Made by a program: the position numbers and the translations under genes
Source of the DNA: Sialis fuliginosa
Lineage: Eukaryota; Arthropoda; Insecta; Megaloptera; Sialidae
Direction: 5' to 3'
DNA length: 64,000 nt
Assembly (NCBI GenBank): GCA_961205875.1
Contig: OY540819.1
Location: forward strand, 8,868,501 to 8,932,500
Part shown: positions 2,012 to 60,165 of the stretch, piece after piece
Layout: the number at the start of each line of letters is the position of its first letter
Position numbering within the stretch: the first letter of the stretch is position 1
Notes under the pieces: model-generated
The model's database searches: none
The model's input: only the letters and a program-made list of their open reading frames with translations
Told to the model about the DNA's origin: nothing

Positions 2012-2970
2012 TTTAATTTTTGTTTATTAAAATAATAATAACAATTTATAATATAATAAACAGAAAGATAACTAACTCGATAGGGAGACTTGAGAGGGGG
2101 AAAGAGTAAAAACTAAACTATATATTTTCTTCTATCTCAGTGCTTATTCTTTAAAAACTTTAAAGTAATCAAAATTCAATAATAATAGGTGAAACCTATT
2201 AATCAAAATAAACGGGTATAAAATTGTGTTTTATTATAACAGTGTTTATAAAGCGTTATGCGCGTTCTTAAAGGTTAATATACATGAAGGTGGAATTACC
2301 TTTAGTATAGTAGGTGTTACCTTATCATCCTATGGATACATTTGTATAAAAAAACAACGTTTAGATCGTTTTTTTCCTATAGATTATGATTTATCTTGAT
2401 GGTGTGGGAGTTTCATGGGTTATATTAGGGTTTCTTGTTATATAATACTATGTTTATAGTGTTTTGGGTTTTTATTAAATAATAATTATAAGTTGTTTAG
2501 GGTGAATCTACTTTTTTTTATCATACAATATAGTTATTCCATAGATCCTGCCACAATTCTGGGTTTATAGTTCTTGAATAAATTAGGTATAAATAAAAAA
2601 CTATTAATAAAAGCAATCGTAAATTAAATATATAGACTCGAGATTTATTATTTTAATTTAATATTTTGTTTTCTGCATTCGTAATAAATATTAAAACATT
2701 GTTAATTTTCATTACTTGTCTATAAAAGTTCAGCAGGTGCCAGACAGTAAAAATTTTCATAGTGATGATTATCTTTAATTTTAGCAAAAAGCAGATGTGT
2801 TTCAAATTGTAGCCTTGAGCGCTAATTTTTAAGTGCCTTTTTAAATAAGGACTTTGTTTAATCAGTAGTTAATAAAGACTAAAAAATTTACAAGACTTCT
2901 TTATTTTTAGCATTTAATGTAATAAAGATCTTAATAAGCAACCCCAAAGGGTTTTGACATGTTACAACAG
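2012..2970. other. AT-rich spacer, nothing recognised
   Basis: Long AT-rich stretch with low-complexity runs. I see no TIR pair, exon signal or island here. Confidence 0.5.
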
Positions 2971-2974
2971 AATC

Positions 2975-3400
2975 TTTTGCTTAAATTGCTTCAACATGTC
3001 AGGTTTTCGAGATATCCTAAAGAACGCCAACGGAGCAACATAAAAGTTCCAAAAATTTAATTTTGGTCATATTAATGAATTTGTACCAAAGCAGGTAATT
3101 TTTTCTAAAATTTTCTTTCATGGTAACAAATAGTACTGTCTTTCACCTTTAAAATTAATTTTTATTGTTGACTATACGATTTTTTGTTGTGGCGATATAC
3201 TAGTTTGAAAATATGTGATTTTTGTTATATTTGTGTAAAGTATAGTGTAAAGTTCATTTTAAAGGGGAAAGAACTATTTGTTGCCACGAACGAAAACCTT
3301 AGAAAAATTGTTTTGGTAATAAATTCATAAATATGACCAAAATATTCATTTTTGCGCATTTAAGCTAGGATAACTAAAAAACCTGATGTGATGAAGCAAA
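2975..3400. repeat. Diverged palindromic (foldback) element
   Basis: About 150-170 bp at the left (TTTGCTT..CAACATGTCAGGTTTT, through TTTGGTCATATTAATGAATTT and GGTAACAAATAGT) is repeated in inverted form at about 3250-3400 (GCCACGAACGAAAACC, AATTCATAAATATGACC, AAAACCTGATGTGATGAAGC). By eye the arms differ at roughly one base in four to five, so it is an old insertion. No target duplication could be fixed. Such long arms with a short loop fit a foldback or MITE remnant. Confidence 0.55.
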
Positions 3401-4390
3401 AATGTTCATTCAGTTCTGGTATAAAAATGATATCAACATGTGTTATTATTATGATTTCGATTTGAAAAAAGAATATTTTTTATTATAGTGTAAACTTTTA
3501 GCCTTTGGATATGTAACAGTATTTTTGTTAAAATAATATCACGTGTATTTAATTGATTAATTATCTACTGTTTATTAACATGCAAAACGGCAAGCAAAGT
3601 CGATAGATTAATATTCAAGTAGATAGATTTTCTTGACAGCACATCGCAGTTTTACATCAATAGATTTTAATCGAAGAAACAGGGTTGAATTTACAAATAT
3701 ATCACCCCCGAATTTTTTTCATAAAAATAAGAACTGAACCAGTTTTCATTTGAAAGTATATATGTAGTTAATAAAGAAAAAAAATGTAGAAGACTAATTT
3801 TGAAGAAATTGATACCTATATACTGATTCTAATAGCTTAGTATAAACTTATTAAAAATAATAATTAAATAATAAAATTTTCAATGGAAAATGAGAAATTA
3901 ATGAAATACCAAAACCTAGTTTATCGAAATAAAAATACGAATTTCAATTTGATGATGATGAGAAGCATTTCTTGTCGACTGGATTACTCCTTTTCCAACA
4001 GCTCAGTGGTGTTTTTGTCATTTCTGTGCAATTAGTTTTATTTTATGAATGCTATTGTTTCACAAGGGATGTCTGACGGAGTAGGAGTTTGCTGATGGGT
4101 CAATCATCGCAGAATTATAGGTATAGGGGGTCTGATACATGGGATTTGAGGGTTAGGGACACTTTGGTGTATGGATGAAAAGTTTTTTTTTTTTACTTTT
4201 ATAGTTTTAAATTGCAGTTTTTTGTGTATTAATTTCAATTTATTTGGAAATAATTTAAATTGGAATTGTGTAATTCTTATCCTAACCTAAAAGAATGACA
4301 AGTTATTCGAATCTCAAGAAGTGCGTGTGCCTTTTTATATTATTTTGATAGCTACATGATATTTACTTATGTTAAATTCAATATTTAAAT
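3401..4390. other. AT-rich spacer with one mixed-composition patch
   Basis: Mostly AT-rich. A patch at about 3960-4170 is less AT-biased but contains no exon, repeat or RNA gene that I recognise. Confidence 0.45.
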
Positions 4391-14472: not shown

Positions 14473-14479
14473 CCAACTA

Positions 14480-15020
14480 AGGTAAAGGCACCAGTTATGG
14501 CCGCTATAAGAGCAAGTTTTTATCAATGGGCTTGTTTTTTATAATTCTCATGAACTCATGTTACTAATAAAACAAGTAACTCTTTATTTAATCAACTAAA
14601 TTACCAAAGTCCGCAAATATAGTTTTTTTTTTAATTAATGTCTTTTATTTTATTTCTAATAATAATATTTAATAAATAATATTTATATCTAAACTAGTAA
14701 TGAGCACGCAGTGATGGACACTTGCTAATGATTACAATTTGATAAATACTACGACACAAAAGATATAAAAGAAAGATTCGTCAAATTAGAAACAATGTAA
14801 AGCAGTTACTATGATAATATAATAATTAATAAATGTCCACCATTTTGATACCTATTGGCCGATTGTCATCAAATCACGCTGTAAGACAGTTAAATGTATA
14901 TAACATAGATTAATATTCAGAAATGGTAGTAATCAAATATCAACAAATATTTCTAATTCAGTACATTTAATTAAAAAATGGCCATTACTGGGGCCATATC
15001 CAAGACTGGTGCCAGTACCT
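14480..15020 (+). mobile_element. MITE family A, copy 2 (about 540 bp)
   Basis: Begins AGGTAAAGGCACCAGTTATG after TA and ends ACTGGTGCCAGTACCT. The inner part carries the family hallmarks: CTATAAGAGCAAG, ACTAATAAAACAAGTAACTC, CACCATTTTGATACC, AATCAAATATCAACAAATAT and CCATATCCAAGACTGG. No coding capacity. Confidence 0.85.
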
Positions 15021-15289
15021 AATAGACTATTGATTTAATATTGTAGTTAAATAAAATTTATTTTTATGTAATAAGCAGATTTTAGTTAAATTGTAAAATG
15101 AAAATTCTTTTTTGTTTATATACTTTCCATAGAACTGTACTTTTTACATCAGAACCGGCCGTCCAGCCCCATTTTTGTAAAATTTTTCAATGAGGATAAC
15201 GACCTATCAAAATTAGTTTAACGATATGATAAAAACACATACATACGTATCGCGAAATAAAAGAATCACTGGAGGTAAATCTGCAGCAA

Positions 15290-19928: not shown

Positions 19929-19931
19929 TTA

Positions 19932-20473
19932 TAGTCCTCGGACCCGGCTTTAAATTTTGAAATAAAAAATACTTCTCTGAAACTTCGTGAATGGATTCAT
20001 TTTGGCGTAACTTACAACTTTTTTATCTTCGAAAATTTTTAATGTGGCATGCGTCAAACATAGTTATAGGAAATTTACGAATAACCCTTTCTTTTTTACT
20101 TGAATTACAATATTTTATAATGCAAACATCGGAAAATATATTGAACTACAAAAATATTGGTGCATTAGCGAGACCTACACCCTCAATATGTCAAATTCAT
20201 GATGTTATGTAATTTATAAATAACCGGTTGATTTTTGCACAATTGCTAGATAAATAATAGTAAAATGTTATGGTTATACTGGCCTACAAAAATCAAGGGT
20301 CTTTTGCCCTGACCTACGCCCTAAACATGTTTCACGCATGCCACATCAAAAACGCCCCAATTCTCAGAATTTTTGAAGATAAAAAAGTTGTAGGTTACGC
20401 CAAAATGAATCCACTCACGAAGTTTCAGAGGAGTATTTTTTATTTCAAAATTTAAAGCCGGGACTGAGGACTA
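19932..20473. mobile_element. TTA-flanked foldback element (542 bp)
   Basis: TTA at 19929-19931 and 20474-20476 flank termini TAGTCCTCGGACCCGGCTTT and an inverse end GAGGACTA. The inverted arms continue for about 130 bp (ACTTCGTGAATGGATTCATT, TTGGCGTAACTTACAACTTT and GTGGCATGCGTCAAACA on the left with their complements at 20333-20473), with several mismatches and a central non-repeated 270 bp. Harbinger-type target duplication; no transposase frame. Several short ORFs here are within the arms. Confidence 0.75.
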
Positions 20474-20476
20474 TTA

Positions 20477-21472: not shown

Positions 21473-21770
21473 ATCCGGTTTAATAAAGGAGCTAACAAAT
21501 TTGCATTTTTCAAACGGGGTATTAATTCTGTGATAGTATCTATGGATTTGTTATGCAATCTAGAGCAGTTATACTTCAACTTATTGGTAACTCTGACTGT
21601 ACAAAATAACTTTCATAATATCACCACTATTTTAATACCGTTGGTGTTAACATACCACGCGTGCGCGAAACTTTTCAAACACTTCAAGAAATTTCAAGGA
21701 AACTGTCAGATAGTTTGGAAACCTCATTTGAAAGTACTTGCGAAGTTGCAAATTTACCGAAAAAAAACAA
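21473..21770. mobile_element. Harbinger-like MITE, group B copy 3 (diverged)
   Basis: Left end ATCCGGTTTAATAAAGGAGC is a decayed form of the group B terminus. The body (AAACGGGGTATTAATTCTG, CATAATATCACCACTATTTT, TACCACGCGTGCGCGAAAC, ACCTCATTTGAAAGTACTTG) is the inverse of the element at 54450-54722. The right terminus is lost. Open frames on both strands run through it but are not genes. Confidence 0.65.
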
Positions 21771-21774
21771 TATA

Positions 21775-22806
21775 ATCATTGATTAAAAACTGTTAAAAAA
21801 ATATTGAATTATGTGATCATCTGATTTTTTCATTCCTCAAAATTTTAGGTGGTTGTATTCTTACAATAAAATAACGTTAGTGTGAAACGATCCCATGTTG
21901 TTTTTCTTAGCAGATTTTTAATTTTTGACAACTGGGTCGTTGTTTTTGTCTCACATTTATTCTCGAATTCTGATAAATCAGTTAGCACATGCCATATTCC
22001 TTTTGTAAATAAATATTTCATAATGTTTTGAAATGCATTGCTAAAAGATTTACATTGCTTCTAACTAGATTGTAAAGTTCCACTTAAATTGAGATACGAG
22101 TTCATTTGTTAATAGGTATGCATATGTTGTGCTGAAATTATTATAGCTTTTAATAAAGCACTGTGACCTGTGGAGATATATTGAAATGTTTAATAGCTTT
22201 AAATAATAACTTTATAATGGCTACGGATTTGTTCGTCGGATGTTTTTTATTTGTTATCTTCCCCCTTTTAATTGTTTCATTTATGGTTTATTGTTTTTAA
22301 TTTGGTCCTAAGTATACTAAATGATTTTCAGATTTAAAAATTATTTTTCGATTTACAAAAAATATAATTCTTTTTAGGGAATGTTTTGGAATAATTATAT
22401 TGAGATATAAGTGGGAAGAAGAATTCTTCCTATCTTAAAATCTACTTGTTAACAAAAACTCGTATATTAACTTTACAAAATATCTAAATCTGGCTACGTG
22501 CTGATTTATTTAATCCATAATCGATTTCAGTTGGGTAAATAAACGATATCTGGAAAAAAATATGTTTTGTCAAATACACATTATCATATACTATGGGCTT
22601 CAGAAGTCGTCTGCCACCGTAAATATCAGAATCGCTTACAACAGATTCGACAATATTAAGACAAACATCATCAGTTATCTTTTTCTAGGGTAGAGCTTAT
22701 CAGTATTTTAAATAAAAACATATTTAAATACTAAAATTCGGAATATGAAATATTTATTACCACAAATTTTTTTTCAATATATTACATAATCATTTAATCG
22801 CACATA
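21775..22806. other. AT-rich spacer
   Basis: No feature supported. A patch at 22595-22680 is slightly more complex but has no recognisable identity. Confidence 0.4.
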
Positions 22807-22808
22807 TA

Positions 22809-23325
22809 AGGTAGTGGCACCAGTTTTGGATATGACCCCAGTAATGGCTATTTTTTAATTAAATGTACTGAATTAGAAATATTTGTTGATATTTGATTAC
22901 TACCATTTCTGAATATTAATCTATATACATTTAACTGTCTTTCAGCGTGATTTGATGACAATCGGCAAATAGGTGTCAAAATGGTGGACATTTAAACTAA
23001 TTATTAGTATAATTTATGCTTTACATTGTTTCAAATTTGACGATTCCTTCTTTTATATCATTTGTGTCGTAGTACTTATCATTCTGTAATAACTAGCAAG
23101 TGTCCATCACTACGTGCTCATTACTGGTTTTATTTTATTCATTACTGGAGAAAAAACATAAACAAAATAAATGTCTATAATTTAAAAAACAAACTATATT
23201 AGCGGACTTTGGTAATTAAATTGATTAAATAAAGAGTTACTTGTTTTATTAGTAACATGAGTTCATGAGAATTACAAAAATGGTAAACCTTGGTCTTATA
23301 GTGGCCATAACCGGTGCCAGTAACT
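22809..23325 (-). mobile_element. MITE family A, copy 3 (517 bp)
   Basis: TA at 22807-22808 and 23326-23327 flank AGGTAGTGGCACCAGTTTTG and ACCGGTGCCAGTAACT. The interior follows the family in inverted orientation relative to 14480: GATATGACCCCAGTAATGGC, ATTTGTTGATATTTGATTAC, GGTGTCAAAATGGTGGACAT, AAGTGTCCATCACTACGTG and AGAGTTACTTGTTTTATTAG. No coding capacity. Confidence 0.85.
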
Positions 23326-23327
23326 TA

Positions 23328-23777
23328 TGTAGTGACCCGCGTGCACAGGGCTAATACGAGTGTTCTCAACCGTGCGCTTCCTGCTTCGATGCAACGCCAT
23401 TCCACTGATAAGAGGAGCAAGTCCATGGGAAAAACAACCAGGTGCTTATTTACATTAATTATCTGTAGACGTATATCACTTGTTTAATTTATTTGTTGTC
23501 ACATTTCATACATTGATAACGACATGCTGATAACGGCTTTATGTGATGTAAAAGGTTTTATGGTATGTTTTAGAATGGCAATTTGTTTAACATTTGATTT
23601 TGACAATTATGGCATTCTTGGAAATTAGTTCAGGATGAATTTGATCGTAATTTGATAAAATGTTTTGAGGTCTTATGAAAAGATAAACATAACTTGCAGG
23701 TAAGGTAGCGAATTGTATTATTTTGTTTTTAGATTTCTGTTGAAGTTAAATTGTTAAAATCCGTAGATAATATAATA
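23328..23777. other. Spacer between MITE A copy 3 and the Polinton-like element
   Basis: The first 120 bp (23330-23450) are more GC-balanced (GACCCGCGTGCACAGGGC, CTTCGATGCAACGCCATTCC) and could be a small conserved element. The rest is AT-rich. Confidence 0.35.
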
Positions 23778-23783
23778 CAACTG

Positions 23784-24419
23784 AGTCAAAACACGTCAAG
23801 TGGACCCCCCTTTTACCACTTAATGATAGAAAACTTATTAAAATATAATTATCGAAAGTAGTCATACCTAAGAATCATCCCTCAAAACAGTTTTTGAAAA
23901 TTTTGAATTTAACAACAATTTTTTTAACAATAAAAATTTTCGGTACTTTTAATTAAAAAATTGATTGTGAAAAAGCTATTGAAGATAACTTAACGAAATT
24001 TTCAGTGATTATAGTTAAATATCTATATTTTCACATAAAATCCTTTTGCAAATTTCATTTGTTTATTATCATATTTTTTATTAACTTTTAAATAAACAAA
24101 TTGAAATTTTAATGACTTCTCAGTACGATAATCGAATTTTTTTTTTTTAGTAATATGCATTATACATTTAAGTAGTTTATTTCGAAATAAAATTTCACTG
24201 CCCGGTATTAGTTTAAATAATATGAATTTTTATGTGACGCAGCGGCGAGCGGTACAAGTGCCGCGCGCTACTGAGCTTAGCCGTTAAGACTGTAGATCGC
24301 TACAAATTACAGAATTATTGAATAAATGATTTTTACAATACAATTTTTTTTGTATTTATTTATATTTTTAACAATATTTGCACAGAGTATTTAAGACATA
24401 TTTATAAAAAAGTATTATT
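23784..24419 (+). repeat. Left 636 bp terminal inverted repeat
   Basis: Pairs with 24972-25607. Contains a GC-rich block at about 24235-24295 (GTGACGCAGCGGCGAGCGGT, GCCGCGCGCTACTGAG) in an otherwise AT-rich arm, and a T12 run at 24137-24148 that has the same length in the other arm. The only mismatch I see is GTATTTAAG here against GTAATTAAG in the other arm. Confidence 0.95.
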
Positions 24420-24424
24420 TAGAT

Positions 24425-24718
24425 TCAACAGTCGAATAAAATAAACATTTTAATAAAATATAATGAAAAAATCAATAAATGCCTTAGATTAGTTCGTAAT
24501 TTTTTTTTCTGTTGTTTCTTAAGTACTACATTTGTAATACTTTTCTCATCTTCGGAGAAAACTTTGCATTTAAGTGAGTCTTTATTGACACTTTCGAAAA
24601 AATGAAATTGACGCTTTTTTTTAATTGTGATTGCTTGGTCATGTCGCGATTTATATTTAACTTCATGGGAATCATGCTCATCTTGAGTACAAAACCCAAA
24701 ATTTACAGTGGCTAATAT
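24425..24718 (-). other. Open stretch of about 97 codons inside the Polinton-like element
   Basis: On the minus strand there is no stop from 24718 down to TGA at 24425-24427. The encoded peptide is hydrophilic and basic, with segments such as DEHDSHEVKYKSRHDQ and SEDEKSITNVVLKKQQKKK, unlike the Ile/Tyr/Phe-rich peptides of chance AT-rich frames in this window. There is no ATG near its start, but TATTAG at 24713-24717 could be a splice acceptor. It may be a leftover exon of the parent element. I do not recognise the family, and chance remains possible. Confidence 0.25.
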
Positions 24719-24971
24719 TTAAATTATTATTAAAAACTGCGACACGGACTAAATTTAATAATAAAACACAGCTTTCACGAAAAAAAATCTTTGTTAGTGT
24801 AGCATGCATTTATGCTAAGAAACTAGTAAAAAACAAATAAATCTTGATAGCTACCGGAATTAACTTGTTTTATATTTATAAATAACAAATGAAAACTGAT
24901 GGTGAAGCTTATTTTTTTTATCTGAAAATATTAGTCAGTTGGAAAAATAATTTTTAATACATACATACCTC

Positions 24972-25607
24972 AATAATACTTTTTTATAAATATGTCTTAA
25001 TTACTCTGTGCAAATATTGTTAAAAATATAAATAAATACAAAAAAAATTGTATTGTAAAAATCATTTATTCAATAATTCTGTAATTTGTAGCGATCTACA
25101 GTCTTAACGGCTAAGCTCAGTAGCGCGCGGCACTTGTACCGCTCGCCGCTGCGTCACATAAAAATTCATATTATTTAAACTAATACCGGGCAGTGAAATT
25201 TTATTTCGAAATAAACTACTTAAATGTATAATGCATATTACTAAAAAAAAAAAATTCGATTATCGTACTGAGAAGTCATTAAAATTTCAATTTGTTTATT
25301 TAAAAGTTAATAAAAAATATGATAATAAACAAATGAAATTTGCAAAAGGATTTTATGTGAAAATATAGATATTTAACTATAATCACTGAAAATTTCGTTA
25401 AGTTATCTTCAATAGCTTTTTCACAATCAATTTTTTAATTAAAAGTACCGAAAATTTTTATTGTTAAAAAAATTGTTGTTAAATTCAAAATTTTCAAAAA
25501 CTGTTTTGAGGGATGATTCTTAGGTATGACTACTTTCGATAATTATATTTTAATAAGTTTTCTATCATTAAGTGGTAAAAGGGGGGTCCACTTGACGTGT
25601 TTTGACT
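24972..25607 (-). repeat. Right 636 bp terminal inverted repeat
   Basis: Inverse of 23784-24419, same length, including the homopolymer run. Followed at once by CAACTG, the second copy of the target duplication. Confidence 0.95.
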
Positions 25608-25639
25608 CAACTGTTAGTCCTTTTAGAAATATATTTTAG

Positions 25640-25918
25640 GAAGACAAAATTTGCTAGCTAGCAAGCACTTTCAAATGGGGTATCAAACTTATATGATAGC
25701 TTTATTGGAGTTTTTGACAGATAATTTCATACATAGGAAGTAAAATTAAAGATATGTCAAGTATATTTACTAATCTTGAGTAAAAACGGTAAAAACCAAC
25801 TTACTGCGCATGCAAATATCTGTTAAAAACTCAAAGAGAACTGTCATATAAGTTTGATACCTCATTTGAGAGTGCTTGCTAGCTAGCAAATTTGCTAGCT
25901 CCTTTATAATACCGGACA
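25640..25918. mobile_element. Harbinger-like MITE, group B copy 4
   Basis: Ends CCTTTATAATACCGGACA; inverted inner arms AAATTTGCTAGCTAGCAAGC and GCTTGCTAGCTAGCAAATTT, then CTTTCAAATGGGGTATCAAA against GATACCTCATTTGAGAGTGC. The left terminus is decayed. It lies only about 30 bp from the Polinton-like element's right target duplication. Confidence 0.65.
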
Positions 25919-29780: not shown

Positions 29781-30204
29781 TGCGGTGATTGTCTCTTTCA
29801 TTTTCCTTCGCTTTTTTATTTTTGCCTCTTTAATCGAATTCCTCTCGGATTTTGTGATTCATGTAAGGATCATTGTCAAATGTCAAATCGATTTTTATTT
29901 AAGTTTCAAGTAGTTTTTATTTGTCAACATAATTTATTGCTTTCTATTTATCTTTAACTGTATTATTTTTTTGTTCTCGTTTTTCAAATTGATTTTGATA
30001 GTTGATGTATTTGGTTTTTGTTTATTTAGATTATTTTATTAATTGGAATCGATAAATTAAGGATATTTTTGGTTTACTGTAAAAATACCTAGGGTGAATT
30101 AATGTATTCCTGCCATGGTCGGAATGTTTTAAAATACTTTCTTTTATAAAAATACTTATGAAAATAATATTAAAAATCTAGAATCATTGAGCAATATAAG
30201 TCTT

Positions 30205-30485
30205 GGCAAGAACCCCAGTAATGGCAAATTTTTAATTATTATATAATTTTTAAATGTACTGAATTAGAAATATGTGTTGATATTTGATTACTACCTTTTC
30301 TGAATATTTATCTATATACATTTAATTGTCTTACAGCATGATTTGATGACAATCGGTCAATAGGTGTCAAAATAGTTGACATTTAAACTAATTATTAGTA
30401 TAATTTGTTTATTAATTATTATATTATCATAGAAACTGTTTTACATTGTTTCAAATTTGACGATTCTTTCTTTTATATCTTTTAT
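30205..30485 (-). mobile_element. MITE family A, partial copy 4
   Basis: From CAAGAACCCCAGTAATGGC to ACGATTCTTTCTTTTATATC it follows the family, including TTGATATTTGATTACTACC and GATTTGATGACAATCGG. The first TIR is decayed and the second half is missing. Confidence 0.7.
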
Positions 30486-30967
30486 TATTTATAATAATTA
30501 TAAAATTGAATTTTTTAAATAGTAATTTGATATTGTTTTCTCCATATTTTATTTAAATAAAATGCTTTTTATTGGATAATATTACAGCTACGTTTGTTAT
30601 GAAACAAATCTTGATATTAAGTATAATTTTTTCCTACGTTGAACTTAACTTAAGTTTAATTTTAAGATACATATTCCAAAGAATTAATTGAAGATAGCAT
30701 TTAAATTGTCAAAGTTTTTTTAACAAATATTTAAAAATGTGACACGAATATAGGTGCGTTCACTCTGTTTTTTATGTTTCTAAACGAATAAAATTTGTAC
30801 TATTTATAGATTCATTCTTTTTATAGTTATAAAAGTTTATTTTTTTATGATAATAATAACAATTTTTAGCGATTTTAAACATAATTTTACTGGTACGAGA
30901 AATCAATATTTTATGTTATAAACATAAGAAAATAAAAATGTGTATCTAATTTATTTTATTGTTACAG

Positions 30968-31039: not shown

Positions 31040-31663
31040 AAGGACATTTTTATAAATTATACTATAACCAAATACACATTATACAATCTACACTTGACAT
31101 TGTATTTTAATATTATATCCTGTTCAGAGTCGGACAAATTAAATAATAATCTAAAAATAGCTTTATACGAATTAAGGAAATGTGTCATTATAAGTTTTAT
31201 TTTTAACCTGTGAAATTCGGATGTCTTTCAGCTATTAATTCTGTTTATAGTTATTTATATAGATATAGCAGCTGCACTTTTAGAATGACACGTTTAAAAT
31301 AGCACCGGTTTAGCATTTATAGGAACACAATAATTTGTTTATTTATCTGACATGGATTTTTTTATTTTCAAACTTTAAAATAAGTAAAATAATGCTAATG
31401 AAATTTTATTACCAGGCTATCAAATTGAGTAAGAAATAAAAAATGCATTTTATATATTCAATTTACAGTGAAATTTCTCTAAATTGACAAAATAATCGGC
31501 CACTTATAAAAATGGTATTTTGGTTCAAAAAGTTTCACTTACATTAGTGGATAATATCGTAAGATTTTGATCGAAATGTTAATTAGTCACTTTTCAACCG
31601 GAAGTGATGGGGACTTGCAACCCTGAAAAGGTATGACACTTCAAGACAAGATCTTTCAAATGA
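31040..31663. other. AT-rich spacer, nothing recognised
   Basis: No repeat border or exon signal supported. Confidence 0.45.
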
Positions 31664-31665
31664 TA

Positions 31666-32232
31666 AAGTACTGGCACCAGTCTTAGATACGACCCCAGTA
31701 ATGGCTATTTTTTAATTAAATGTATTGAATTATAAATATTTGTTGATATTTGATTACTAGCATTTCTGAATATTAATCTATATACATTTAACTGTCTTAC
31801 AGCGTGATTTAATGACAATCGGCCAATAGGTGTTAAATGGTGGACATTTAAACTAATTATTAGTATAATTTATTCATTAATTATTATATTATCATAGCAA
31901 CTGCTATACATTGTTTCAAATTTCACGATTCTTTCTTTTAAATCATTTGTGACGTAGTATTTATCATTTTGTAATGATTAGCAAGTGTCCATCACTGCGT
32001 GCTCATTACTAGTTTTACTTTATTCATAACTGGAGAAAAAACATAAACAAATTAAAAGGCTATAATTTAAAAAACAAACTATATTTTCGAACTTTGGTAA
32101 TTAAATTGATTAAATAAAGAGTTACTTGTTTTATTAGTAACATGAGTTCATGAGAATTACAAAAAATAAGCCCGTCAATCACAAAAACAGTAAACCTTGC
32201 TCTTATAGTGGCCATAACTGGTGTCAGTACCT
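31666..32232 (-). mobile_element. MITE family A, copy 5 (567 bp)
   Basis: Begins AAGTACTGGCACCAGTCTTA after TA (31664-31665) and ends ACTGGTGTCAGTACCT before TA. Longest copy; carries the family landmarks including CCGTCAATCACAAAAACAGT and AACCTTGCTCTTATAGTGGC. Confidence 0.85.
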
Positions 32233-32234
32233 TA

Positions 32235-33005
32235 TCTAACTTGTCTATTTTAGATCATTATGTCTATTGTCTATTTTCAAATCATATTATAATAATCTTC
32301 AAAGATTTCCAATAATTTCCTCTGACGAATAATATTCGGTCTCACAATCAAAACACATATCTACCAACATATTATTTTCATTATAATAATATATGCAAAT
32401 AATATATTATCAAAATATTGCACAATAGCGTACATCAATAAATTATCAATATATTATAAATAAATGTATAAAAAAAACAACAACAGTAAAGGCGTCTTCT
32501 GATGATATATTCACCCCAGAAGCTAAACAAGTCACTCTGGCCGTGATCCAACCACTGGCCATTTCTTTGTGTGTTTTATTTTCACTGTTATTTGGCCAAA
32601 GAATGTGGGAGATGGTTCCCTTAGCACTTTGGGCTGCTTTTAGTTCCATGAATTTAAGTGCTAATATAAATTACTATAAACAAATTAGCAAGCGGTCGAG
32701 ATAATTGCTCTGTAATATGTATTGGATGCTGATGAGATTGATTGTGTTTTATTTTAGCAGATGTTAGTCGTTATTTACTATAAGAATGTCTTTATAATGT
32801 TAAATTAAAGAGAGAATATATTGAATTTATAGTGTGTATTTTTATTATATTTTTCTAGTCAAATTTAGAATTAATTTAACTGTGGTATTTGGGTAAAATT
32901 ATACTGGAAATGATAATAATTCTCAGTTATATATTTTGTAGAATCCTGAATACATTCCTATTTGAATTAGTTCTTTTGATTAGGTGTAAGTAGAGTTGTC
33001 AATAC
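32235..33005. other. AT-rich spacer
   Basis: A 67-codon minus frame (32446-32649) has a somewhat more protein-like composition (Ala, Ser, Thr, Gly) around TCACTCTGGCCGTGATCCAA but no recognised motif. May be a short transposon relic. Confidence 0.35.
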
Positions 33006-36204: not shown

Positions 36205-36639
36205 TTGTTTAATTAAATATACCAAATTATAAATATTTGTTGATATTTGATTACATACTGCCATTACTGAATATAACCATTTAAACTTAACGCTAAAACA
36301 GTTTAATTTGATGACAATCGACCAATGTATGTCAAAATGGTGGACTTTTAAACTAATTATTAGTATAATTTATTTATTAATTATTATATTATCATAACAT
36401 CTGCTTTACATTGTTTTAAATTTAACGAACTTTTGTGTCGTAGTATTTTGTATTTATTAGCATTATTCGTTTTACTTTATCCATTACTATAACTTAAAAA
36501 AAAAAACAATATTTGCGGACTTTAGTAATTAAATTGATTTAATAAAGATGTATTTCTTTTATTAGTAACATGAGTTCATGAGAATTCCAAAAAATAGTAT
36601 ACCTTACTCTTAAAGGAGCCAAGACTGGCGTCAGTACCT
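36205..36639 (-). mobile_element. MITE family A, copy 6 (left end decayed)
   Basis: Matches the family from ATTTGTTGATATTTGATTAC to the right terminus GACTGGCGTCAGTACCT followed by TA. The left terminus (36150-36205) is no longer recognisable, and the part between the mid-element blocks carries several small deletions. Confidence 0.75.
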
Positions 36640-36641
36640 TA

Positions 36642-37350
36642 TTATAAAATATATTTTTTGATGGGTCGTTAGGTTTGTTAAGAAATAATGGGTTGCAATT
36701 TTAAAGTAATTGAGATCTATTAGTTAAATTTTATTCAATACTAATTATATTCTGATGGAATAAATTCATAATTTTCTAAGTGATTTTTTTACAGCAGTTA
36801 GTTCACGATTTTGTTGGAAATATCCATTTTGACCTTCCCCGAATCCCTCTGACTATATAAAAGAGCGAAATTTTAAAATTAGGATCAATTTTCTTCAAAG
36901 AAGAAAACATACTATTTTCTAAAACGATTTTACAACAAGAAACGGATGTTTTTGATAAAAGTTGTATAGAATCTATGCACTTATAAATAAATGACATATT
37001 TAATTACATTAATTTATTATGTATGTACTTTATCACATTCAAACCAGCAATATACAAATCATACCTATGAATAAATAATAATATCAATAATTATGTCTTA
37101 TACCGTAGAAGTGAATCGAATTAGTATTTTATCGATAGCAAACAATCGAATAGGATTTTTTAAATATGATTCAATACAACTGAAAAATTATGTAATGTGT
37201 AATACATCAATCTGCATATATATCTTATAAAATTATTATTTAATCAATCTATTGTACTTATGTTGAACTATTTTATGGTATTAATGCTTATATTTCGTCA
37301 CTTGGTATCAAGATAAAATTAATACAATTAGCATACTTACAAAAAGTACT
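36642..37350. other. AT-rich spacer, nothing recognised
   Basis: AT-rich DNA with one short minus-strand frame of chance composition. Confidence 0.45.
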
Positions 37351-37352
37351 TA

Positions 37353-37720
37353 CATCTAAGGAAGTTGGGATCTAAGCCAGCTTTGGAGAGGTGAATCTAG
37401 ACCAAAAATAAGGAGACACGTGTTCGAGAACTCATCTTGGCAGCCCTTATTAGTAAAGATATTAAATTTTTTAAATTGGTATATTTCCTTAAGTTCTTAT
37501 TTACCGTTATAAGCATCTACGTGTTCTTTGGATTATAAGCCGGCGCTCTACACGCGCGTAACTACGGTACATAAGAGCTTAAGGAAATAAAACCAATTTT
37601 CAAATTTTAATATATTTACTAATAAGGGCCTACCCAGATGAGTTATCGAACACGTGTCTCTTTATTTTTGGTCTAGATTCACCTCTCCAAAGCTGACTGA
37701 AATCCCGACTTCCTTAGATG
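37353..37720. mobile_element. TA-flanked palindromic element (368 bp)
   Basis: TA at 37351-37352 and 37721-37722 flank CATCTAAGGAAGTTGGGATC and its inverse. The inverted arms run about 140 bp (GGTGAATCTAGACCAAAAAT, GAGACACGTGTTCGAGAACT, CCCTTATTAGTAAAGATATT and the complements at 37580-37720), with a short GC-rich loop (GCCGGCGCTCTACACGCGCG). A TA target suggests Tc1/mariner-type mobilisation. Confidence 0.75.
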
Positions 37721-37722
37721 TA

Positions 37723-39010
37723 ATGTCCCCTTGTTAATTAAATTGGCAGCTGAATGATAAAAAAGAATACGGTGTTCAGGATCTACTGTTTTTATTTTAG
37801 TTTAATTTTGAATACCTATTTTTTTTCCTATGTGACTGCTTAACTAATTTAAATTTATTATATTAATAATTTTATATCACGCCTTTGAAATTGATATTTT
37901 ACTTACTGTGTATACGTAAGTTATTTTACTCATTTTATGTAGTTTTCATTAAAAATATTAAAATTGATAAAGCAGCTGAATAATTGAAATCCATGAAGTG
38001 TAGCTTGCATTTATTTTAATATTTTGTTTTATGTTTGTTTGTTATTGCAATATCTTTCGTTATGCTGGTTAAGAAATATTATTATTCGAGTATAGATTTA
38101 GTCATGTTAGAGTGAAACTGTAAAATAAATGTGCTTGGATTTGAAATCAATAATATTTTATGAAAACGAGTAATGCCTGTTATGTATAGCTCTAAAATAA
38201 TTATTTAAATAAAAATTTGTAGCTACTTATTCATTGTTAGTAAATATTACTGAAAAATGTTTTCTTATAAAAGTTCTAATTAATTAATTAAAATATTTTT
38301 ATTTTCTCAAATACGGCTGTATCTTTGAATCTAAACCATTGTTTAGAGCATTTATTAATTTGATTAATACGTAAGTACAGTGAATACTTTTGTTATTAGA
38401 CTCATTACTGCATTTCAATCATAATAAAAAGAAAGAATATGTGATATTATTGGTTAATTGATAAATCGGCTTTTTAATAAATTTTAGTCATGTTTCTTTA
38501 GAACACGACTGCACTATTAAATTAACTTTTTCTCACATTTTTCTTCGTATGAAGTATCCTCTAATCCCTGATTTTAATATCAATCAGTACTGAAATATGA
38601 ATAAGTATTAACTATTCATTGAAACATGAAGAAATATACGTAAAATTTATAAAAAAAAAAAAAATAGTTGTTTTACTTATCTTTTTTATTATTAATAATA
38701 TAAATTTCTGTGATCCAAAACTCACGAATCTGACACTAAAAGAAGTCCATGAAACTGCTGTTGCCTGGGGCCTGAAAAGTTCATAAGACAGTCAAATACA
38801 AATAGAAGAAACTGTAAAATATAATGTGCCAAGATTTATACGATTCTATCACAGACTCAATGTTTTTAATAGTATATTGATTTATTGAAAATATGAGATA
38901 ATATTAAAGTTCTCGACCGAGATTACACACTTATTGACCGGAAGTGGTCCAGACTTTGCCGCTGCCGTCACACAAAATAAAAAATAGATCACACGTGTCT
39001 ACACGTACAC
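37723..39010. other. AT-rich spacer
   Basis: Mostly low-complexity. A patch at 38730-38830 is slightly more balanced with no identity found. Confidence 0.4.
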
Positions 39011-40045: not shown

Positions 40046-40673
40046 CAATGATAAATTGTTTAAAAAAATAATTTTTATGACTCAATTTCAAAAAACTATC
40101 TTGATCTATATATGTATAATTTCATTTTATTATTATATCTGAAATTTTTACTACAAGAAATAAAAATTATATCAAACAATAATATGTACATACACAAATA
40201 TAAAAGATATGTACATATATATATCATGCATATATACACAGTACACATATGTATATATATAGTATGTTAGTTTCAATGTGCGTACGTGCCAGTGTGTGTA
40301 TTTGTCGAGGAAGTAACTAAATAGTTTGTCAACATGAGAATATAGTGAGCGCCCGACTTTATTGTATTTTTCTGATTGAAGGTTTTAGATTACTTTTTAT
40401 TTCTTCTCCTTTTCTATTGTAATGATATTGTGTTTTCCTCTCCACCGTTTTTCATTCTCTTGTTTTGGTTAATATTTATGAATATTCACGTTTTGTAAAT
40501 TGAATTTTTATTCACACGTTGTTTTCATTCATATTTCTATTATTGCATAGTAAAAGTAAATATAGCTAATGGTAGTAATGAGGTGCTGATGGTAATTAAT
40601 GCTAAATAATTTACAAAGATATTTTGTTTTGTTATCTGATTAAGACTTTGTATGTAAATATTTGTATTGTATA

Positions 40674-41187
40674 AGGTAGTGGCACCAGTCTTGAATATGA
40701 CCCCAGAAATGGCTTTTTTTTAAATTAAATGTATTGAATTGGAAATATTTGTTGATATTTGATTAGTACCATTTGTGAATATTAATCTATATACATTTAA
40801 CTGTCTTACAGTGTGATTTGATGACAATCGGACAGTAGGTGTCAAAATGGTGGACATTTAAACTAATTGTTAGTATAATTTATTTATTAATTATTATATT
40901 ATCATAGCAACTGCTTTACATTGTTTCAAATATTATGATTCTTTCTTTTATATTTTTTGTGTCGAAGTACTTATAATTTTGTAATGTCCATCACTCTCAT
41001 TACTGGTTTTACTTTATCCATTACTGGAAAAAAAAAAAAAAATAAAATAAAATAAAAGGCTATAATTTAAAAAAACAAACTATATTTACGGACTTTGGTA
41101 ATTAAATAGATTAAATAAAGAGTTACTTATTTTATTAGTAACATAAGTTCATGAAAATTATAGCGGCCATAACTGGTCCCAGTACCT
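40674..41187 (-). mobile_element. MITE family A, copy 7 (514 bp)
   Basis: Begins AGGTAGTGGCACCAGTCTTG after TA and ends AACTGGTCCCAGTACCT before TA; the duplication may be TATA (40670-40673 against 41188-41191). Family landmarks are present, with an expanded A-rich stretch at 41027-41055. Confidence 0.85.
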
Positions 41188-44965: not shown

Positions 44966-46280
44966 ATCCTTACCTGATATTATGATTAATCTAGTGGTCA
45001 GTATCTGATTAATATATTTCCGTTGATAACTCATATTTATCTATACACGAGTAGGTACTTGTATCACGCTCTTATCATATCAATATAACAACAACGGTGA
45101 TTTTTAATTAACTAGAATATATTGTTGTATATGAAATTATAACATTGTAGTTGGTATGCGACATAGTTTCAAAAGCATTTTAATATGTTGCAATATTGAA
45201 GAATATAAACTTTATATGCATATTTGTCTATAGTACATTATGAAAATATTAATACAAAAATTTAAATACATTTTACATTTTTAAATTTTTTTTATATGAC
45301 ACGTCACCAAACCTTTATTTTAATTTGATTTTAGGTCTTAATGATAACATTGAAAATACATATTTTTTTCTCTTTAACATGGGATAGTCGTGTATTTAAA
45401 AAAGTTGGCACAAACTCCATATATTTTTCATGATTTTATAAGATATAAATTTATTGAAAAAAATATTCATGTAAAATAGAAAAAAAATCTTATTATTTTT
45501 TCTTTCTATCCCCTCCCTCCCCATCCTTCCTAATTACCCGTAAAAGAAACGTATAAAATTTTCATATACATTGATTTGTTTATTTATTTTTATTATTTTG
45601 TTATTTCTGGACACATAAAGTTATTAACTTTATTCTTTGATCAAAATATTTGTTAATATTGCAGGAGTTTTTATGGCCTACAAAAATTGTTTTTTTTACT
45701 TGTTTTTTTAGAAATAATGTAATTTTATAAGTAAATTTTGAGGGAAACAGAGAACATCATTCCCCTTTTAACATAAAAACTGGCTTTGTAACCTAAACAA
45801 ATAAATGGCATTAATATAGCACATTACTTCATTAAATATGCATTTCGTTGTTAATTTTGTTAACCAAGTTTTTTTCTGGTTGGCCGCTGATAGGTTTCTG
45901 CATAACTAGATTCAAATGGCTTGTAATGTGCTTCAAATTACATCGCCGATATCATATTAGCACTATTTTAAAAAACGATTTTTCAAATCGCTCGGCTATA
46001 AAAATTGGTAATTAAAATTTCAATTAACAATAAATCATTTCATAATTAGATTTTTGACATTTAGGACAAATATGTACGATATATGAATTCTAATTTAAGG
46101 TTTATTAATTTTTAATTCATATCTTGTTTTAAATAAGAAATGATTATCGTGTTTCTAGTACGTGCTTGTATGTATTTATGTTCTATGAACGCTTGTTTGG
46201 CAATAGAATTAATTAAATACATTTTTCATTACTGCAATAATATTCGTAATAGATTTGATATATAGTTTTTTGGTTTTCAT
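44966..46280. other. AT-rich spacer, nothing recognised
   Basis: About 1.3 kb of AT-rich DNA. A pyrimidine-rich patch (45510-45530) is the only departure. Confidence 0.45.
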
Positions 46281-46283
46281 ATA

Positions 46284-46834
46284 AGGTACTGGCACCAGTT
46301 ATGGCCGCTATAAGAGCAAGGTTTACTGTTTTTGTGATTAACGAACTTCTTTATTGTAATTCTCATGTTACTAATAAAACAAGTAACTCTTTATTTAATT
46401 AATTTAATTATATATGTAGTTTGTTTTTTAAATTATAGCCTTTTATTTTGTTTATGTTTTTTCTCCAGTAATGGATGAAGTAAAACCAGTAACGAGCACG
46501 CAGTGATGGACATTTGCTATGATTACAAAATGATAAGTACTACGATACAAAAAATATAAAAGAAAGAATCATTAAATGTGAAATAATGTAAAGCAGTTGC
46601 TCTGATAATATAATAATTAATAAATAAATTATACTAATAATTAGTTTAATTGTCCACCATTTTGACACCTATTAGCCGATTGTCATCAAATCTCGCAGTA
46701 AGACAGTTAAATATATATAGATTAATATTTTCAGAAATAGTAGTAATCAAATATCAACACATATTTCTAATTCAGTACATTTAATTAAAAAATAGCCATT
46801 ACTGTGGTCATATCCAAGACTGGTTCTAGTACCT
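46284..46834 (+). mobile_element. MITE family A, copy 8 (551 bp)
   Basis: Begins AGGTACTGGCACCAGTTATG after TA and ends GACTGGTTCTAGTACCT before TA. Same orientation as 14480. Complete set of family landmarks. Confidence 0.9.
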
Positions 46835-46836
46835 TA

Positions 46837-47385
46837 TTTATTATGTTTATTAATTAAAGACAAGAACAGTAAGATTAAATTGTTACAGCCAGTAGAAATA
46901 TAACTGTAATAAATTTGATTTGATAGGCGTTTGAACTATTTCTTGCCTTGATTACCCCAGTGCTCAAGTCCTCCCAATAATCCATATTCGGTGTGATTTT
47001 AAACGTTTTTACTCGATGTATGTATATACTTAAAAAAAAAATTCAACAACCTGCAGAAAGCGTTTAAATAAATAAACACAATTTTCAAAATTTAATATTT
47101 TCTTAAGGACGCGACGTGGTAAAAATAAAAAATAAATTAAATTTAAATAACATTAATCTATCATATAAAACAATTTAATCATGGATTTGGTTCATAGAAT
47201 AACCTCCTTAATACATTAGTGCAAAGCAGTGTCCATTTGCAAAACATCCATTTGTTTTATAGAAACAATATTTAGATATGAAAATTAAAGCTAAAATATG
47301 CTATTTTATAATGTGTACAACCCTATACATAACATTATTGAATACAGAATGTAAATAAACTTTTAATAGTAATGATTTCAAGTTG
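46837..47385. other. AT-rich spacer
   Basis: Nothing recognised. A moderately complex patch at 46920-47000 has no identity. Confidence 0.4.
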
Positions 47386-54445: not shown

Positions 54446-54449
54446 ATAA

Positions 54450-54722
54450 TGTTCGGTATTATAATCAAGCTAGCAAAATTAGCTTGCAAGCAATTCCAAA
54501 TGAGGTTTCAAACGTATCTGACAGTTCTCTTAAAGTTTCATGAAATGTTTGACAGTTTTCGCGCAAGCGTGGTATGTAAACACCAACGATATTAAAACAG
54601 TGGTGATATTATGAAAATTATTTTGTACGTTAAATTCCATAGATACTAGTACAGAATTAATACCCCATTTGAGAGTGCTTGCAAACTAACAAATTTTGCG
54701 AGCTCCTTTATAATACCAGACA
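54450..54722. mobile_element. Harbinger-like MITE, group B copy 5 (273 bp)
   Basis: TAA at 54447-54449 and 54723-54725 flank TGTTCGGTATTATAATCAAG and an inverse end CTTTATAATACCAGACA. Inner blocks GCTTGCAAGCAATTCCAAAT and ATTTGAGAGTGCTTGCAAAC extend the inverted arms. The body is the inverse of the element at 21473. Confidence 0.8.
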
Positions 54723-54725
54723 TAA

Positions 54726-55445
54726 GTTCTTCTAAATAACTAACGATTTGCTGAAAATAACAAATTACAAACTGATATAAATTTGGATCGAATTTCAGTT
54801 TCGCAAATATATGAACAGTTGATCAAATATTTGCATGCATCTGAAACATTTTCGATTTCCCTATGTACCGTTGTTAAACTCTACACGTAACGAGTCGTTA
54901 ATTGCAAGAATACAAAAAATAAAATAAACACAATATAAAAAGGTTGTTACTCCTTAATGTGGTCTTAAAATAATGTTTACGACGTGTAATTTTATTGACG
55001 TTTAACTTACGGAGCTACTTGATTTAATTGCAGGCATCAGAAATTAAATACATTCTAAAACAATAATAAAGCTGACGCACTTATAAGTGAAACCAGCGTT
55101 TATTCATCACGATTAGCAGCAACCTAACTCCATAAAGGGTTTGAATATTTAATAGTGCATCACTAATTTAGAAACAAATGAGCCTAGAAAACCATTAAGA
55201 TGGTGATCTATTGTTTAGTGATGCAACTTATACTTTGTGGGGATTGTTGGGAAATTTACAATTTCTCTTCAATTAAAAAATACTTGCTTTAAGTTGATTC
55301 AGTAATCAAAACGATTCTCTCTGTTTTAAGCCACTCTAGGATTTAAAAAAAAACGATTTTTTGCTGCAACAATTCTTTAACATCATAAAAACAATATGTA
55401 CTTGATTATATAGTAAAAAAATCGGCTTCACTATACTTACTTATA
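54726..55445. other. Spacer with a mixed patch
   Basis: The patch 55070-55260 (GAAACCAGCGTTTATTCATC, CGATTAGCAGCAACCTAACT) is slightly more complex than the surroundings. Nothing identified. Confidence 0.35.
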
Positions 55446-55450
55446 CTGTA

Positions 55451-55839
55451 CAGTGTATTCTAAGTTGATTAAGATATAGGAAATTTAACATGGGGACAAT
55501 TAAAAATGTTGTAGTAATCTTTGGTCAAATTTAACGATGTGTGATTGGTGCATTTTGAAATGCCGCCTCGAAACTAACTGATAAATTTTAAATTAATCAA
55601 CAGTATTTTGTTCTCAACTTTAATTTCATTAATTTAAGCATCCTAGATAAAATTATAATAATATTTTTTGGCAGATATAAATATGAAAACAAAATACTAA
55701 TTACAATTTTATTAAATTTTGTGGCGGCATTTCAAAATGCACCAATCACACATGATTAAATTTGACCAAAGGTTACTACAACACTTCTAATTGCCCCCAT
55801 GTTAAATTTCCTATGTCTTAATCAACTTGGAATACACTG
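55451..55839. mobile_element. Tc1/mariner-like palindromic MITE (389 bp)
   Basis: TA at 55449-55450 and 55840-55841 flank CAGTGTATTCTAAGTTGATT and its near inverse. The arms are about 120 bp (GATATAGGAAATTTAACATG, GTGTGATTGGTGCATTTTGA, AATGCCGCC and their complements at 55718-55839) with only a few mismatches. A CAGTG start and TA duplication are typical of Tc1/mariner elements. Confidence 0.85.
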
Positions 55840-56139
55840 TATGTATATTTCATTTCATATACATGGTATAAGAATGTAAAAAAATTACAGTGCAGAAGGT
55901 GCTTAAGGTTACTCAAAAGATCAGTAGGGTACGCTACGTAAAACTTACTGCTCGTAAAACTTTAAACGCGTTTTTCTCGAAACCACTTTTTTCAATCTTA
56001 TATTGCTTCAACACGTTTGAAAATTTGACAGTAGCTTCATAATTACATCCTTTATAGAAGTACTTAGGGGTTTTTTGATTCGATGTAAACTTTTTATTTT
56101 ATAAGCAATTTACTGCCTTTTTGGAAAAAATCGAATTTT

Positions 56140-58261: not shown

Positions 58262-59255
58262 CGATGCAACAAATCTGAAAAAAATTCAGAATGTAGCTTT
58301 CAAATAGTACTTTCAATGAAAATTATAACGAACACTTAAAAAAAAAGTTTTTAAAATACCTAACTCTTTTTTTTATAAATCGTACACACGTACATTTTTA
58401 TTAATATTTTTGTTTTTTTTTTTGTAAAAAAAAAAAACAATTGCGTTTTATCTCTTTGGTTTTAAAACCTACTTCTCAAATATAAACTTATTAAAAAAAG
58501 TTATTTGATACATTTTCTATGACATGTATTCATATTATTACCCGTTTTTCAATATTTTTAAATTTATCAGTGTTTTCCCTTAGAAACAAAAAGTAAAAAT
58601 TCAATGTATCCATGTCAGTTTTAACTCTATCTTATTTAACAACCTATAAATTTCACAATTTTTAATTAAAACTAAGTATGAGAACACAATAAGGAAATAA
58701 AAAAAAACTAAACATAACAGTAATTTGTTAACTTTAGTGAAATAGGTAATATAAATTACTGGGGAGGTAAACACAATTACAAATTGTTATATGTATAATA
58801 ACAGTACGCAATTAATTAAAGTTACAATTTATTAAAATTAATAATGGATGTTAATAGTTAGTATAATTATACTATGCGGATAAATATTAATTTACATTGG
58901 TCGTGTATTGATTTACTAAATTACCAAAGTTTAATTTAGTTAAATCCATTGTGTTAGAATTGCAATTAATTAGTTTTCAAATAATAATTATATTATTTAT
59001 TTATTTACACGTACTTTACGTTGTTCAGCTCGATAAAAATATTATTGTGTATTAAAATTTATCAAATAGTATTCCTGTTTTTAAATTTTATCCAATCTAT
59101 CGCTGTTTATCGATATTTAGTGTATTCAACACTAGTTATAATTCAATAGATATTTTCTTGTTCAATTGGTAGGATACATATTTACAAATAATACATAAAT
59201 TGAAATAATCGATTTTAAAATTTTTATTCTCTTTGATTTTAATTTCGGTGGATAA
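58262..59255. other. AT-rich spacer, nothing recognised
   Basis: Strongly AT-rich with long homopolymer runs (about 58408-58440). Confidence 0.45.
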
Positions 59256-59259
59256 AAAA

Positions 59260-59798
59260 ATGTACTGGAACCAGTCTTGGATATGACCCCAGTTATTTTA
59301 AAAATAAATATACTGAATTAGACATATTTGTTGATATTTGATTACTACCATTTCTGAATATTAATCTGTATAAATTAAACTGTCTTACAGCGAGATTTGG
59401 TGACAATTGGCCAATAGGTGTCAAAATGGTGGATATTTAAACTAATTCTTAGTTTGATTTATTTATTAATTATTATATTATCACAGCATCTTCTTTACAT
59501 TGTTTCAAATTTGACGATTCTTTCTTTTATATCTTTTGTGTCGTAGTACTTATCATTTTGTAATCATTAACAAGTGTCCATCACTACGTGCTCATTACTG
59601 GTTTTACTTTATCCATTACTGGAGAAAAAACATAAACAAAATAAAAGGCTATCATTTAAAAATCAAACTATATTTGCGGGCTTTGGTAATTAAATTGATT
59701 AAATAAAGAGTTACTTGTTTTATTATGAGAATTATAAAAAAGAATCACAAAAACAGTAAACCTTGCTCTTGTAGCGGTCATAACTGGTGCCACTACCT
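59260..59798 (-). mobile_element. MITE family A, copy 10 (about 540 bp)
   Basis: Left end TGTACTGGAACCAGTCTTGG is partly decayed; right end AACTGGTGCCACTACCT before TA. Family landmarks are all present in minus orientation. Confidence 0.85.
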
Positions 59799-59800
59799 TA

Positions 59801-60165
59801 TAATATTCTAAAACTACAAATCACATAAACTTTGAAATTTTTAAATTAAAATGTTTTTTGTACATTTTTATTACGTATCAATATTTTAATTTTGTTTTGT
59901 AGCTACACCCTTTACATAAATAATCATCTGTATATAGATTAATATAAAGATAGATAGATAGATATATAAACATCTTTATTTCCATAAAAAACATACAAAG
60001 ACAATAATAGAATAATATAATAATAAAATAATTATAATAATAAATATGGGATTTGTAGATTTCTTAAATGTTAATGATGAAGGGCAGAGACTTTATATTT
60101 TTTGGTACACAGTTGTATACATATTTTAATTATAGAGATGCACTATTATATAAGTAGATGCACGT
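59801..60165. other. AT-rich spacer with a (GATA)n microsatellite
   Basis: About four GATA units at 59949-59965; otherwise AT-rich with nothing recognised. Confidence 0.5.

Follow-up and report, generated by a model that had tools for sequence, protein, structure and literature searches.

The window analysed here is a stretch of 64,000 nucleotides of the Sialis fuliginosa genome (C11:8868501-8932500). It contains an element of 1.8 kb in which two long inverted arms enclose a short core, and the question raised by this locus is what kind of mobile element left it there. The initial annotation, made from the window alone, described it as a recently moved, miniature Polinton/Maverick derivative with 6-bp target duplications. 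Comparison with its relatives elsewhere in the genome gives a different answer. The element is non-autonomous and most likely derives, by internal deletion, from a cut-and-paste DNA transposon whose terminal inverted repeats are approximately 0.63 kb long (probability roughly 0.93).

Read from the window alone, the two arms occupy positions 23784-24419 and 24972-25607. They are 636 bp each, differ at a single position (24390) and enclose a core of 552 bp (24420-24971). The ends are AGTC...GACT, and the string CAACTG is present on both sides (23778-23783 and 25608-25613). These features were described correctly in the initial annotation. When at most three mismatches are allowed, a terminal probe of 23 bases matches the two arm ends and nothing else in the window, and the mean in 100 shuffles is 0.00. 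The inverted-arm structure far exceeds what chance would give. Direct repeats of 6 bp at the arm spacing occur at approximately 0.0009 per position in the window (56/62158), so some form of duplication was credible from the outset. A search of the window with the arms and ends finds no further copy of the element, and a search with the joined 400-bp flanks finds no uninterrupted second copy of the insertion site. The arms are A/T-rich except for a GC-rich patch at 24240-24310, which is mirrored in the right arm and is common to all arms that reach that far. This patch is possibly an enzyme-binding or promoter region; its folding is not unusual (z -0.87 as DNA and -1.09 as RNA). A 19-mer from the patch matches one contig (L001, 63% GC in the part examined) over 21 bases, which was judged to be chance.

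The genome searched comprises 392 Mb in 20 contigs. The arm has at least 38 matches, and the copy counts given here rest on the matches listed. Among these, 34 matches on 10 contigs form 17 two-armed copies, including the copy in the window. Of the remaining matches, two make up one split arm (L026) and two are weak, at 80% over 80 bp and 81% over 65 bp of the query. The split arm lies at 985-1140 and 8674-9156 of L026 with approximately 7.5 kb of other DNA between its parts, and a second arm was not found there. The 16 two-armed copies outside the window (L010-L025) were examined together with their flanks. All two-armed copies except L010 and L011 are 0.9-2.3 kb long. L010 is 9.2 kb long and contains a nested Gypsy retrotransposon (L010:1091-8791), to whose polyprotein the integrase domain in this copy belongs. 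The retrotransposon has long gag and pol frames and 1200-bp repeats that are 99.67% identical, and is young. Miniature inverted-repeat transposable elements in the strict sense are under 600-800 bp long, a limit drawn from passages of PMC3573991 and PMC5199201, and are present in high copy number. The window element is 1826 bp long and 17 two-armed copies were found, which places it outside this group.

The borders of the element were set by comparison of the 17 copies. In every copy, a G precedes AGTC (AGAC in L022) and a C follows GACT. Because both bases are present in 17/17 copies they are assigned to the element, which therefore ends in GAGTC...GACTC and does not start with AG as first proposed. 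With these borders, the window copy extends from 23783 to 25608 (1826 bp, minus strand, reversed relative to the coding copy L011) and its arms occupy 23783-24419 and 24972-25608. Direct repeats are present just outside these ends in all copies, 4 bp long in 11/17 and 3 bp long in 6/17. Both lengths are present within one family. In the window, the duplication is AACT (23779-23782 and 25609-25612), with a C ahead of it and a G behind it. A C stands directly ahead of the duplication in 8/17 copies and a G directly behind it in 4/17; 3/17 copies have both. When the repeats are instead measured from AG, the window copy and L020 have 6-bp repeats, L025 has a 5-bp repeat and the other 14 copies have no exact repeat. 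The 6-bp appearance is thus a coincidence, since only the three copies with both flanking bases mimic longer repeats; a preference for targets with a C ahead of the cut perhaps contributed to it. The short copies expected by the initial annotation do exist, but their duplications are 3-4 bp long and not 6 bp. The other symmetric reading of the window, in which the ends are TG...CA and the duplication is AC, 2 bp long (outer matches by chance 0.0025), was dropped after the same comparison.

Among the relatives that share these arms, L011 (3.8 kb) is the longest without an interruption. It contains two frames, 403 and 295 residues long, with matches to a large family of proteins that resemble transposases. 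The frames match no Pfam model, the polymerase and ATPase models included. One homologue, P0113, carries the sole label Cc8L18.2-like, and no library used names the protein. The model of a second homologue, P0054, is that of an RNase H-fold integrase/transposase. When 45 of the 120 listed homologues are aligned to it, three acidic residues are conserved, and D314 would be the third catalytic acid. By way of this homologue, rather than the L011 protein itself, the L011-type protein is predicted to be an RNase H-like DDD/E transposase. That the family belongs to the cut-and-paste DNA transposons of the RNase H-fold kind is very likely.

The core of the window copy retains a small part of this gene. 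It contains a 97-residue frame on the minus strand (24428-24718), and 63 residues of this frame (24521-24709) align at 94% identity with residues 223-285 of the second frame in L011. The conserved aspartates of the second L011 frame, the putative catalytic acids, are at positions 58, 143 and 184 (counted from motifs). The remnant lies beyond them, so the window copy is unable to supply the enzyme. Other copies retain more: the second frame is whole in L013 (98% identity), much of it is present in L014, and a part is present in L012. The origin of the 97-residue frame is clear only through the comparison with L011. It has no match in Pfam, PHROGs, the protein clusters or the viral contigs, and its best match in PDB has an E value of 1.3. 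The frame ranks second of the 238 window frames in charged residues, and equal length is reached in 14/1000 random cores. A Pfam scan of 120 window frames gives a best E value of 0.003. Searches of the element in Rfam and against phage records, and of the viral contigs for the terminal 18-mer, found no match.

The 16 copies other than L011 all have both ends of the L011 form and lack one or two stretches of its middle. The window copy, read in reverse, consists of L011 positions 1-903 joined to 2880-3779. The junction is at 24706-24707, where the two alignments overlap by two bases. With the ends of the coding copy and without the catalytic part, the window copy is by this test a non-autonomous deletion derivative. 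Several junctions are common to more than one copy. L015, L016 and L020 have one in common, L018 and L019 have another, and L021, L022 and L024 share a 1202|3160 junction and have further losses. That separate loci have junctions in common suggests multiplication of the already shortened forms.

Arm divergence was measured over the first 590 bp in 31 arms, with the short arms L023_R, L024_R and L025_R left out. The mean difference is 0.54% between arms from different copies (451 pairs, highest 1.5%) and 0.40% between the arms of one copy (14 copies, highest 1.2%). The two arms of the window copy are identical over this length. Because arms of different copies are only approximately 0.5% apart, the spread of the family is recent, as the initial annotation had proposed for the window copy. 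Arm identity within a copy is no clean clock, since inverted arms can be homogenised.

These observations are consistent with the following mechanism. A fuller form, of which L011 is one copy, encodes a transposase that has approximately 690 residues and an RNase H-like core and is probably divided between two exons. This enzyme would bind the arms and excise the element. Insertion would occur at a short staggered cut, and fill-in of the cut would give the duplication of 4 bp or sometimes 3 bp. The window copy would have lost approximately 2 kb of its middle, probably in the course of repair, so that the arms and a small fragment of the transposase gene remain. The transposase of fuller copies may then have moved the shortened copy in trans. 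The dependence on enzymes in trans that was first suggested is kept here; the proposed source, a Polinton integrase and replication machinery, is not.

The superfamily is probably Sola2, a name reached by inference and not by comparison with any named Sola protein. AWWT duplications are reported for Sola2 in one amoebozoan species (PMC3627910). The duplications of 3-4 bp found here, whose first base is A or T and whose last base is T in 12/17 copies, appear to resemble them. The 3-bp length of 6/17 duplications, where 4 bp would be expected, weighs against this assignment. It is what would be expected if the mechanism were the same and the transposase belonged to another or unnamed superfamily near Sola, for example one with mixed 3- and 4-bp duplications. 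The absence of a superfamily name for the protein in the libraries used, where P0113 is labelled just Cc8L18.2-like, fits this alternative as well. So do descriptions of Academ elements with 3-bp duplications (PMC5199201) and with two duplication lengths (PMC10045372). The A/T-start, T-end pattern of most duplications argues against it, and a superfamily other than Sola2 is considered unlikely, although it deserves weight. A tentative proposal is that the family represents an insect Sola-like lineage with unusually long arms, with 3- or 4-bp staggered cuts in one family and with several independent deletion lineages that are still multiplying.

The 5'-AG termini are a Polinton feature, and the AG...CT ends with CAACTG on both sides made a Polinton derivative, moved in trans by a Polinton integrase and polymerase, a natural reading of the window alone. 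If AG is taken as the end, 2/17 copies (the window copy and L020) do have 6-bp repeats. The element also has inverted repeats of hundreds of bp, as Polintons do. Their length is inside the 46-1447 bp range described for intact vertebrate Mavericks (PMC8097293), but arm length is no reliable classifier (PMC3573991). The genome contains frames of Polinton-type polymerases as well: PF03175 (family-B polymerase) has at least 43 matches, of which ten have the same score (70.7 bits), and nine of these ten are in an open frame of 1362 residues. This pattern suggests that real, recently multiplied Polintons are present. The frames are on C1, C2, C7, C8, C9, C13 and other contigs (some of them L028-L033).

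Against the Polinton reading, G and C are inside the element in 17/17 copies and the duplications are 3-4 bp long. The coding relative L011 carries a different protein. The closest pair of a two-armed copy and a PF03175 match, among 17 copies and 43 listed matches, is approximately 98 kb apart on C2. The ends do not have the (AGT)2, (AG)3 or (AC)3A motifs described for vertebrate Mavericks (PMC8097293). The search for a longer element with the same termini and genes for PolB, integrase and ATPase, which the initial annotation had suggested, instead led to L011, which carries transposase-like frames. No such relative is present among the frames of L010 and L011, and the other 15 copies are 0.9-2.3 kb long and align to L011. 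Two of the three findings that the initial annotation had named as contrary to its own reading, a different duplication length and arms of another kind of element, are thus found outright. The third, the absence of an autonomous relative, is found insofar as no relative has Polinton genes. What stands of the first description is that the element is shortened, non-autonomous and recently moved; the boundaries found across the family, together with the coding copy, refute its Polinton identity. Literature phrases for miniature or non-autonomous Polintons returned no papers except one that names Polinton-1N1. Polinton-1N1_DR, a name of the type given to non-autonomous families, has already been published (PMC9341505), so such a class is in itself not wholly new; N denotes a non-autonomous family, as shown for other elements (PMC10045372).

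A Foldback or Galileo-like element of the P superfamily is equally improbable. Galileo does have long arms, and its two-arm derivatives have mean lengths of 1.7-2.2 kb, but its duplications are 7 bp long (PMC3573991) and not 3-4 bp as they are here. The L011 frames, moreover, match no Pfam model. Chimeric assembly can yield near-identical long inverted arms, but both an artefact of assembly and a plain inverted duplication of host sequence are refuted by exact ends that are common to 17 copies on 10 contigs, each with different flanks and its own duplication.

Several other repeats are present in the window. A repeat of approximately 575 bp with inverted ends (consensus TATAAGGTACTGGCACCAG...CTGGTGCCAGTACCTTATA) has eight copies, some of them partial, at 14478-15024, 22805-23331, 30199-30508, 31663-32238, 36205-36642, 40670-41162, 46280-46839 and 59255-59802. 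It resembles a miniature element of the Tc1/mariner type, presumably with TA duplications at the borders of single copies. Further near-palindromic or inverted-arm elements are at 37350-37723, 55449-55841 and 19931-20474, and by eye their borders fit TA duplications. A near-palindromic repeat of approximately 247 bp (25647-25893) starts approximately 35 bp past the right border of the main element, and parts of it are also present at 54446-54731 and 21684-21755.

This locus illustrates how misleading a lone copy can be. Here, the bases C and G that happen to stand beside a 4-bp duplication mimicked the 6-bp signature of a Polinton, and comparison of the family settled the matter. One coding copy and 16 deletion derivatives, with arms approximately 0.5% apart, form a compact case for the origin and spread of shortened transposons.

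Compared with Polinton/Maverick elements (PMC8097293), the family agrees in the range of arm length and differs in duplication length, ends and coding content. The two-arm derivatives of Galileo in Drosophila (PMC3573991) similarly form a deletion series from long inverted arms with loss of the transposase; Galileo belongs to the P superfamily and has 7-bp duplications. Sola2 of amoebozoa (PMC3627910), compared by description and not by sequence, likewise has 4-bp, A/T-rich duplications, a large transposase and derivatives without most of the transposase gene. Its arms are 12-21 bp long, in contrast to approximately 637 bp here, and the 3-bp duplications of 6/17 copies are a further difference. 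Sola2-derived miniature elements are described from the Cotesia congregata genome and from bracovirus segments (PMC7822920). They too are short, non-autonomous Sola2 relatives in an insect, and by description alone they are set beside the two-armed copies of 0.9-2.3 kb found here (all except L010 and L011). Miniature Sola2 relatives in an insect have therefore already been described, and the present family adds a member to a known kind.
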